Shown here piece by piece: positions 1,778 to 4,257 of a stretch of DNA of 24,268 nt (positions are counted from its first letter, which is position 1; each line of letters opens with the position of its first letter). The DNA comes from a virus. The position numbers and the translations under genes were made by a program. Location: IMG/VR virus record IMGVR_UViG_3300032235_000067, positions 1-24,268 of that record; one strand, 5' to 3'. The notes below the pieces were generated by a model. That model was not told the origin of the DNA, did not search any database, and saw only the letters and a program-made list of their open reading frames with translations.

Positions 1778-1952
1778 GGTTGTTTAGAGGGGTGGCAGGT
1801 CGGGTCCTTCCAGCCGATCCAGCCCCACGGGTGATTAGGAGCCCAATAAATTTGCAGAGAGAGCAATTTCCAGACCCATTTGTGAAATATTGTTACCAAA
1901 GCCCGAAATAACAAAAGCCTAGACAAAAACGCTGGCAGGTGTCATTTAATGG

Positions 1953-2038
1953 AAGTGCCGCCGACGAAGACCGTATCTGGGGGAAATCGGGGACAAATAC
2001 GCCATTAAAACACCGGAGATATATGGCGGGCGGCACTT
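1953..2038. other. Nested inverted repeat upstream of terminase
   Basis: AAGTGCCGCC (1953-1962) is the exact reverse complement of GGCGGCACTT (2029-2038). Nested against the right arm is a second perfect pair, CGCCAT (2000-2005) with ATGGCG (2023-2028); a weak GTAT/ATAC pair (1973-1976/1997-2000) could form a third helix. As RNA this would fold as a closed multi-branch structure whose two main helices stack. It ends 47 bases before the terminase small-subunit ATG. It may be a packaging site, a leader RNA controlling terminase translation, or an undescribed RNA. Confidence 0.45.
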
Positions 2039-2084
2039 TATAGAATTGGGGAATAAAAATTTTGATGCAATTTCGGAACCCATT

Positions 2085-2531
2085 ATGAAGCAGGAAAGAA
2101 AGCCCACCACTGGCGGTGTTCTCATAGGATCGTCTTATGACGAGGCCCGCACCCGTAAAATTAATGCCGAGGCCGAGATCGCTGAACTGGAACTGGCGAA
2201 GATACGCGGCACCCTATGCCTGACCGACGATGTGGTGAAGGCATGGGAGACAGTTCTTCACGCCTGCAAGGCCAAATTCTTATCGCTCCCCACCAAGGTC
2301 GCCCCAGTCGTGGCGAACGAGAGCGATGTCGCTGTGGTAAAAGACCACATGGAAAATGCTATCAGGGAGGCATTGCTTGAACTCTCCAATTATCAACCAG
2401 CAATTGATCCAGTCAACACGGGTTCCGCTGCTGTCGAACCTATCGCGGGCGATGAAGCGCCTGACGCCCCCGCCAAGAATGTCAGTCGCAGAGTGGGCCG
2501 ACCAAGAAAGGCGGCTGGACTCTCAAAGTAG
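2085..2531 (+). CDS. Terminase small subunit, Nu1-like
   Basis: This is the DNA-recognition subunit of the packaging enzyme. The protein has the usual arrangement of the Nu1-like group: a charged helix (ARTRKINAEAEIAELELAKI), then CLTDDVVKAWETVLHACKAKFLSLPTKVAP and a second helical block ending EALLELSN. I prefer ATG 2085 (148 residues), which has CGGAA upstream; an in-frame TTG at 2046 would add 13 residues but lacks a clear ribosome site. A canonical N-terminal winged-HTH is not obvious. The C-terminus is basic and AT-hook-like (RRVGRPRKAAG), a possible DNA contact. The last 80 bases are shared with the large-subunit gene in another frame. The directly following GpA-type large subunit supports the call. 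Confidence 0.75.
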   Translation: MKQERKPTTGGVLIGSSYDEARTRKINAEAEIAELELAKIRGTLCLTDDVVKAWETVLHACKAKFLSLPTKVAPVVANESDVAVVKDHMENAIREALLELSNYQPAIDPVNTGSAAVEPIAGDEAPDAPAKNVSRRVGRPRKAAGLSK

Positions 2532-4257
2532 CGCAGAGCCGGGGCGCTGGGTTACTGCTCGCGCCGAGTATCAACGCGGCATTATGGATGCCTGCTCCGA
2601 TCCCCTGATTAAAGAGGTGGTTGTCATGTGCGGGGCGCAGCTTGGCAAGTCCGAGATGCTGCTTAACACGATTGGCTATCACATGGCGCACGATCCTGCG
2701 CCGATCCTGATGATGCAGCCTACCGTCGATATGGCGCAGGCGTTCTCGAAGGACCGTATCACTGCGGGCCTGCTTCGCTCAACTCCCTGCCTGCGGGAAA
2801 AGGTAAAGGATTCGAAGGCCAAAGATGCGAACAATACAACTCTGCACAAGGTATTTGCTGGCGGCGCTCTGTCTCTTGTTGGCGCTAACAGTCCATCTTC
2901 CCTTGCTTCTCGCCCGATCCGTGTCGTTCTGTGTGACGAAGTTGATCGATATCCCCCTTCGGCTGGTGAGGAAGGCGATCCAATATCTCTGGCTAAAAAG
3001 CGAGCGGCTACCTTCTGGAATAGGAAGGTAATCCTAGTCTCGACTCCAACCAACCGGAATGCTAGCCGGATCGAGTCGGCTTATCAGGAAAGCGACCAGC
3101 GCAAGTTCATGGTGCCTTGCAAGGATTGCGGCCACGAACAGGAACTGAGGTGGGCCAACGTTCAGTGGACGGACGAAAATCCGCACACGGCTTATTATAG
3201 CTGCGCCGAATGTGGTTCGATCTGGAGTGATTCCGACCGGCATAAGGCTGTGTCGAAGGGGAAATGGGTGGCGCACAGTCCGTTCAATGGCGTGGCTGGG
3301 TTCCATCTCAACTCACTTTACTCGCCTTGGACGGTGCTATCGGATGCGGTCGAGGACTTTCTGGCTGCTCGCAAAGACCCAATGCGGCTTAAAACCTTCG
3401 TCAACACCTTTTTTGGTGAGACGTGGGAGGATCAGGGCGAGGGTGTGGACGATTATGCCGTTGCCCAGAGAAAGGAAGATTATGAAGGCATTCCTGATGA
3501 GGTTGTGGTTCTCACTTGCGGCGTTGACGTTCAGGATGACCGTCTGGAGGTCGAGATTGTCGGCTGGGGAGCCGGTGAAGAAAGCTGGCAGATAGAATAT
3601 CATGTCCTCTACGGCGATCCATCCACGCCAAGCCTATGGGCCAAGCTGGATGAGATTATTCTGGCGACCTATGAGCATCCGTCCGGCGAGCCTATGCTGA
3701 TCCGCGCCACTTGCATTGACTCTGGTGGTCACCACACGCGGGCAGTTTACAATTACGCTAAGACTAGGGCGGGCCACAGGGTCTACGCCATCAAGGGCGT
3801 CGGCGGAGAGGGTAAGCCTATCGTTGGCCGTCCGTCTCGGAACAATATTGGCAAGGTGCCGCTCTATCCAATTGGCGTCGACACGGCCAAGGAGTTGCAC
3901 TATGCCCGTCTAAGGATAGATGAGGCTGGCGGTGGCTATTGTCACTTTCAGGCCAAGCGGGATGACGAATATTTCAAGCAGTTGACTGCGGAGAAACAGG
4001 TAATCCGCTATCATAAGGGCTATCCAGTGCGGACTTGGGTCAAAAACCGGACCAGAAACGAGGCGCTTGACGTTCGCGTTTACGCCATTGCGGCTTTTCA
4101 TATCCTCAATATTAATATAGATAGCATTGTGAAGCGGTTCTATGCTAATATCGAACGAAGGTCGGACACTCCGGCCAAGGTTGAGGATGCTAGGCCGCAT
4201 CCGTTGGTTCCAAAAAGGGGGCCAAAGCGTGGTGGCTTTGCTAATAACTGGCGTTGA
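2452..4257 (+). CDS. Terminase large subunit, lambda GpA family
   Basis: The packaging ATPase-nuclease moves DNA into the prohead and cuts it. I chose ATG 2452 because the family signature PPPRMSVAEWADQERRL begins right after it; the frame is open from 2356, and ATG 2479 is possible. With this start it has 601 residues (lambda gpA has 641). Seen: a Walker A-like CGAQLGKSE (about 60-68), Walker B VLCDEVD (about 159-165), two CxxC pairs (CKDC at 223, CAEC at 251) likely to bind zinc, and the nuclease motif GVDVQDDRLEVEIVGWG around Asp359, with CIDSGGHHT near 421. The GpA type implies cohesive-end (cos) packaging. It overlaps the small subunit by 80 bases. Confidence 0.95.
   Translation: MKRLTPPPRMSVAEWADQERRLDSQSSAEPGRWVTARAEYQRGIMDACSDPLIKEVVVMCGAQLGKSEMLLNTIGYHMAHDPAPILMMQPTVDMAQAFSKDRITAGLLRSTPCLREKVKDSKAKDANNTTLHKVFAGGALSLVGANSPSSLASRPIRVVLCDEVDRYPPSAGEEGDPISLAKKRAATFWNRKVILVSTPTNRNASRIESAYQESDQRKFMVPCKDCGHEQELRWANVQWTDENPHTAYYSCAECGSIWSDSDRHKAVSKGKWVAHSPFNGVAGFHLNSLYSPWTVLSDAVEDFLAARKDPMRLKTFVNTFFGETWEDQGEGVDDYAVAQRKEDYEGIPDEVVVLTCGVDVQDDRLEVEIVGWGAGEESWQIEYHVLYGDPSTPSLWAKLDEIILATYEHPSGEPMLIRATCIDSGGHHTRAVYNYAKTRAGHRVYAIKGVGGEGKPIVGRPSRNNIGKVPLYPIGVDTAKELHYARLRIDEAGGGYCHFQAKRDDEYFKQLTAEKQVIRYHKGYPVRTWVKNRTRNEALDVRVYAIAAFHILNINIDSIVKRFYANIERRSDTPAKVEDARPHPLVPKRGPKRGGFANNWR

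Follow-up and report, generated by a model that had tools for sequence, protein, structure and literature searches.

A candidate structured leader RNA between the cohesive-end site and the terminase genes in a group of uncultured phages

The window, by which we mean the whole stretch of DNA analyzed here, is a phage contig of 24,268 bases. It carries the genes of the small (terS) and large (terL) terminase subunits and, upstream of these, a cos site and an inverted repeat to which an earlier note had drawn attention (Table 1). For comparison, related loci were taken from viral contigs, approximately 130 initially with further ones added; one contig may give several loci. In other relatives (L008, L027, L031, L036, L038, L073, L097 and L098) an HNH endonuclease-like ORF was located directly before terS, where the window has the cos-leader region. 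Directly 5' of the cos site of the window two terminator-like hairpins were found (1566-1586 and 1649-1665), which probably end the right-end transcript. Additionally, short C-rich tandem repeats consisting of CCCCTTG units (1606-1645) were present near the right end of the genome.

Table 1. Positions of the features between the cos site and the terminase genes of the window
Feature	Position	Strand	Basis
cosQ-like GGGTCCTTCC (lambda: GGGTCCTTTCC)	1802-1811	.	comparison with the lambda right end
cosN, 12-nt cohesive end GGTGATTAGGAG, true virion end	1830-1841	.	contig ends of relatives and sequencing adapters
R3-like direct repeat, putative TerS site	1859-1880	.	direct repeats; binding inferred
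-35-like TAGACA	1920-1925	+	hexamer type and 17-bp spacer recur in 9/9 element-bearing leaders
-10-like CATTTA	1943-1948	+	mostly CACAAT in relatives; predicted start approximately 1953-1955
Whole structured RNA element, 86 nt (three-way junction P1/P2/P3 and L2-L3 pseudoknot)	1953-2038	+	R1 model match, covariation
P1 5' strand, AAGTGCCGCC	1953-1962	+	inverted repeat; 5/10 P1 pairs vary on both sides
P2 5' strand, CCG (3 core pairs, a fourth in some relatives)	1971-1973	+	alignment A6
Pseudoknot strand in loop 2, UCUGG	1976-1980	+	loop-loop complementarity
P2 3' strand, CGG	1988-1990	+	alignment A6
P3 5' strand, CGCCAT	2000-2005	+	folding; 5/7 P3 pairs vary on both sides
Pseudoknot strand in loop 3, CCGGA	2013-2017	+	loop-loop complementarity
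P3 3' strand, ATGGCG, adjoins P1 3' strand	2023-2028	+	folding, covariation
P1 3' strand, GGCGGCACTT	2029-2038	+	inverted repeat, covariation
R1-like direct repeat, putative TerS site, overlaps the terS ribosome-binding site	2067-2084	.	direct repeats; binding inferred
terS, small terminase subunit	2085-2531	+	phrog_57, E 1e-19; ATG at 2085; start position conserved
terL, lambda gpA-type large terminase	2479-4257, start approximate	+	phrog_15, E 6e-254

The contigs of many relatives start at GGTGATTAGGAG or variants of it, six of them with identical offsets to terL. In the complete contigs G001, G002, G003 and G011 the right end repeats the contig's own version of the 12 nt found at its left end (e.g. 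GGTGATTAGGAG, GGTAATAGCGAC or GGTGATTCGGAC); on the left, G003 lacks the first three of these bases. Additionally, at the right end of G004 and at the left ends of L113 and L114 the 12-nt boundary is joined directly to a sequence which we take to be Illumina adapter. This pattern of termini is that of 12-nt cohesive ends filled in at library preparation, and the fill-in suggests a 5' polarity. In the window the cos site is internal to the contig, whereas many contigs of relatives stop there; the assembly of the window thus spans joined ends (circular, concatemeric or integrated form).

The sequence GGGTCCTTCC, the counterpart of GGGTCCTTTCC in lambda, sits 28-30 nt upstream of the cut. The region 1802-1841 and its surroundings resemble lambda cos in the 12-nt cohesive ends, in the cosQ motif GGGTCCT upstream of cosN and in the repeats between cosN and terS. 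Of the R-type TerS sites and IHF bend expected in a lambda-type cosB, the direct repeats of the window are putative TerS sites. Furthermore, the left half of the 12 nt is conserved in this group and the right half is variable, as has been described for lambda-like phages (PMC4669245). In Roseobacter phage CRP-406 (L425, PV211008), whose record was deposited as circular, what looks like a cos of this type (GGTTCTTCTGG ... GGTAATTCGGACC) is located upstream of terS at approximately 885-930.

The earlier note had described a perfect 10-nt inverted repeat with 66 nt between its arms, a second pair of 6 bp directly adjoining the right arm and a possible third helix. All three are present and correspond to P1, P3 and P2, respectively. 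The pairing between loops 2 and 3 had been missed. Single-sequence statistics of this structure are modest, with folding z-scores on the + strand of -2.7 to -3.3. A 10-bp repeat with a gap of up to 100 nt occurred in 74 of 3000 dinucleotide shuffles of the leader (1842-2084), and since such a repeat thus arises in ~ 2.5% of shuffled leaders, the sequence of the window by itself is only suggestive.

The decisive evidence is comparative and consists of matches to a structure model and covariation among nine members, as computed from their sequences. A covariance model (R1), trained on four relatives with the window left out, matched the window at exactly 1953-2038 (55.5 bits, E 7e-11) and also found L096, L180, L178 and L110, all of which are far more diverged. 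The model-based alignment A6 comprises nine distinct members, each located between cos and terS, which have P1, the hairpins P2 and P3 and a loop-loop pseudoknot of 5-6 bp in common. In this alignment 83% of the cells pair. Changes on both sides were found in 11 of the 22 nested pairs, a count equalled in 1 of 500 shuffles, and in 26 cells as compared to 7.7 in the shuffles; these counts are inflated by fitting the alignment to the structure, but P1 and P3 show a wide range of pair types. The covariation score was 0.408 (shuffles: 0.15; none of 500 as high), and the signal was gone, with scores of 0.03-0.095, when the pairing partner was slid by 1-3 columns.

Loops 2 and 3 retain 5-6 bp of complementarity in each member despite sequence change, with variants such as UUUCGG/CCGAAA, UCGGC/GCCGA and CCAGCA/UGCUGG. 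The loop-loop complementarity score of seven members was 99 compared to 68 ± 5.7 (maximum 93 in 5000) for shuffles, which ignore shared ancestry. On the + strand 10 G-U pairs stand against 4 A-C cells, which weakly favours this strand. The branched RNA fold just 5' of the terminase genes that the earlier note had envisaged, and for which it had proposed to look for covariation across relatives, was borne out by these compensatory changes. Based on the alignment, the element is almost certainly a structured RNA in which P1 encloses P2 and P3 and the loops form a pseudoknot. An intrinsic terminator was rejected, as no U-tract is present past the 3' strand of P1. A self-cleaving ribozyme was rejected as well, given the lack of an Rfam match and a predicted transcript start that coincides with P1.

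Each of the genomes checked carried one copy of the element, always in the interval from cos to terS. The fold of the window begins 123 bp to the right of the cosN site; the cohesive end lies 112-123 bp upstream of the element in most members and 89-107 bp in the others. In contrast to the neighbouring lambda-like cos, which is a DNA site, the inverted repeat is not a cohesive end, as had been suggested from the resemblance of GGGCGGC to the cohesive end of lambda. The virion ends map to 1830-1841 and not to the element, so that this match is a coincidence. Of the idea that the repeat belongs to cos as DNA only the location holds: the element is not cos, but it falls within what is probably cosB, with a direct repeat resembling a terminase-binding site on either side. 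These repeats, GCAATTTCNNNACCCATT (1859-1880 and 2067-2084), flank both promoter and RNA. Their spacings among relatives correspond to 9.8-9.9, 12.9, 17.9, 18.9 and 19.9 helical turns, with one exception of 12.4, and are near whole turns in most length classes (Rayleigh p ~ 0.03). This helical phasing is suggestive, and it hints that cosB limits which lengths can be inserted. Both the phasing and the location between repeats of the R-site type would suit a DNA-level part of cos, acting as a spacer or cruciform that positions the TerS-binding repeats in cosB. However, we consider this very improbable: DNA spacing does not explain covarying helices and a pseudoknot, the same cos is found in relatives without the element, and in the window over 100 bp separate the element from the virion end. 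The spacing may limit the length of the element without being its function.

The stretch from cos to terS varies in length among the relatives and the motif is common to the longer ones. L015, which carries the element, and L016, which lacks it, are identical in 104 of 105 upstream columns; what differs is the sequence from the -10 hexamer to the AT-rich stretch that precedes terS. When presence of the element was mapped onto a tree of 39 terL sequences, 8 gain/loss changes were needed, at least 7 of them forced by well-supported branches; recombination can occur between terL and its leader, so that exchanges are counted here along with losses. As an accessory module, the element is often lost, gained or exchanged in a cassette-like manner. 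Given the near-identical relatives without it and the changes on the terminase tree, it cannot be essential in this group. A packaging RNA that is part of the motor, similar to the pRNA of phi29, would be favoured only by the position beside the terminase genes. It is extremely improbable, as the element is missing from relatives with nearly the same terminase, and no lambda-type gpA motor is known to need an RNA.

In some relatives strong hairpins replace the motif between cos and terS, namely in L102 and L104 (GGGCGAGCGG..CCGCTCGCCC) and in L099, L101 and L103 (GGGGTCAGCG..CGCTGACCCC). In L025 a strong hairpin (GGCTGGGTGG..CCACCCAGCC) is located after the motif. Two kinds of these hairpins have pyrimidine-rich loops.

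The element is a previously uncatalogued RNA module, and no member beyond this phage group turned up in the collections examined. No Rfam family matched the window, L063, L110 or L096, permissive thresholds included. Phage records contained no near-identical match to the region, and three exact-pattern scans of the viral collection returned the known members only. In 80 TerL-related bacterial (prophage) loci matches to the model were at chance level only. Of 783 alphaproteobacterial genomes sampled, 398 came from the order to which a Sphingomonas belongs and 385 from the class that includes a Roseobacter. They yielded no convincing member; the few matches, of 23-28 bits and mostly without one hairpin, were judged to be chance because of the number of genomes. 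Among cultured phages the nearest TerL (57-62%) belong to the Roseobacter phages CRP-8xx and CRP-406, and the three cultured Roseobacter phages closest by terminase were all without the RNA. Five genomes carrying the element were compared in gene content with five lacking it (functions unassigned), which revealed nothing convincing and no antiterminator that swaps with it.

All nine element-bearing leaders carry a sigma70-like promoter with TTGACA, TAGACA or TGGACA, a spacer of 17 bp and a weaker -10 hexamer (CACAAT, CATTTA, CAGTAA, CAGGAT or TACTCA). The element begins approximately 4-8 nt past the -10 hexamer, and most relatives without the element carry the same promoter. The -10 hexamer of the window is poor, which counts against a leader, and the transcript start is only predicted, since a generic/strict consensus scan did not report the promoter at 1920/1943. 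Judged from the placement of the hexamers, the transcript very likely starts at the 5' arm of the element. The terS start follows 130-132 nt after the start of the element (132 nt in the window) and a constant 45-46 nt after its end in eight of the nine members; in L110 the former distance is 218 nt.

We therefore regard the element as probably a structured leader RNA of the late transcript that acts in cis, by acting on the polymerase or on the 5' end of the mRNA, which it would protect or tune. Fold, covariation, position, patchiness and the separate cos were computed; we infer the place at the head of the late transcript, the action in cis and the action on the polymerase. From the promoter within the cos region, transcription would begin at the left arm, and the terminase/late message would fold over its first 86 nt at once into the P1-P2-P3 three-way junction, locked by the loop-loop pseudoknot. 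A 46-nt spacer and terS would follow, and the element would act upon its own transcript. The terminator-like hairpins at 1566 and 1649 would isolate the terminase unit from transcription upstream, which we count in favour of a leader.

The nascent RNA could work on the RNA polymerase leaving the late promoter by anti-pausing or antitermination, as put of HK022 does on early transcripts via the zinc-binding domain of the polymerase beta' subunit. This is the most likely single mechanism, although we propose it tentatively. The putL RNA of HK022 is located just downstream of its promoter, is ~ 70 nt in size and modifies the polymerase (PMC9378689). Similarly, the element would be a compact cis-acting phage RNA (~ 70-86 nt for the two) near a promoter, at the start of a long phage transcript. 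As to the location immediately downstream of a promoter, promoter-like hexamers are rightly placed in the nine members, the start being predicted from sequence. However, put consists of two stem-loops without an enclosing helix or a loop-loop pseudoknot and acts on early transcripts, whereas here P1 encloses P2 and P3, the loops pair and the element is at the predicted start of the terminase/late transcript. Because the secondary structures differ, the likeness is one of place and size and not of membership. Against this mechanism, 28 terminator-like sites were counted in the late region vs 20.5 ± 5.1 by chance, which is no clear excess that would call for antitermination. It is somewhat more speculative still that the RNA emerging first from a late promoter in cosB modifies the polymerase such that it reads through the entire packaging and morphogenesis operon with no protein antiterminator, which would make it a new, cassette-exchanged class of phage RNA.

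The next mechanism, protection or tuning of the 5' end of the late mRNA, is about as likely as a put-like action and thus likewise possible. A compact 5' fold would here block decay or set the access to the terS ribosome-binding site, possibly via a bound protein or ligand. Three-way junctions with touching loops and conserved junction bases are a common architecture for the binding of ligands or proteins, and the purine riboswitch, a three-way junction with a loop-loop contact, has the same general topology. The element shares this architecture with its conserved junction bases, lies at the predicted 5' end and keeps its constant distance to terS. On the other hand, predicted pairing of the ribosome-binding site shifts little or inconsistently with the element, and we saw no alternative pairing of the kind that riboswitch expression platforms typically show. 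In difference to purine-riboswitch-like RNAs it has neither a match in Rfam nor a visible expression platform; a terminator after P1 and a consistent effect on the predicted access to the ribosome-binding site were both lacking.

An accessory RNA acting in trans, either as a small RNA freed from the leader or as a decoy or trigger in host defence, appears unlikely. The patchy presence with 8 gain/loss changes and the clean cassette exchange would suit an arms-race or accessory trait, and CBASS is triggered by structured RNAs (cabRNAs) from the terS-terL region of staphylococcal phages (PMC10686824). The element is likewise a structured phage RNA of the terminase region. However, cabRNAs, which activate a CBASS cyclase, originate within terS/terL and can reach ~ 400 nt, whereas the element is an untranslated leader with a conserved covarying structure. 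Furthermore, no terminator after P1 would release it, and the fixed spacing to terS suggests a role in cis. In the lambda cos literature examined, no structured RNA of this kind was found.

Leader RNAs of phages are mostly unknown beyond a few model phages. The element described here adds a defined fold at a defined place, the predicted first nucleotide of the late transcript. Natural pairs with and without it have nearly identical flanks, so that its effect is directly testable between sister alleles. Additionally, a real cohesive end is fixed for an uncultured phage group, and the locus is a clear example of an RNA module nested within a DNA packaging site.
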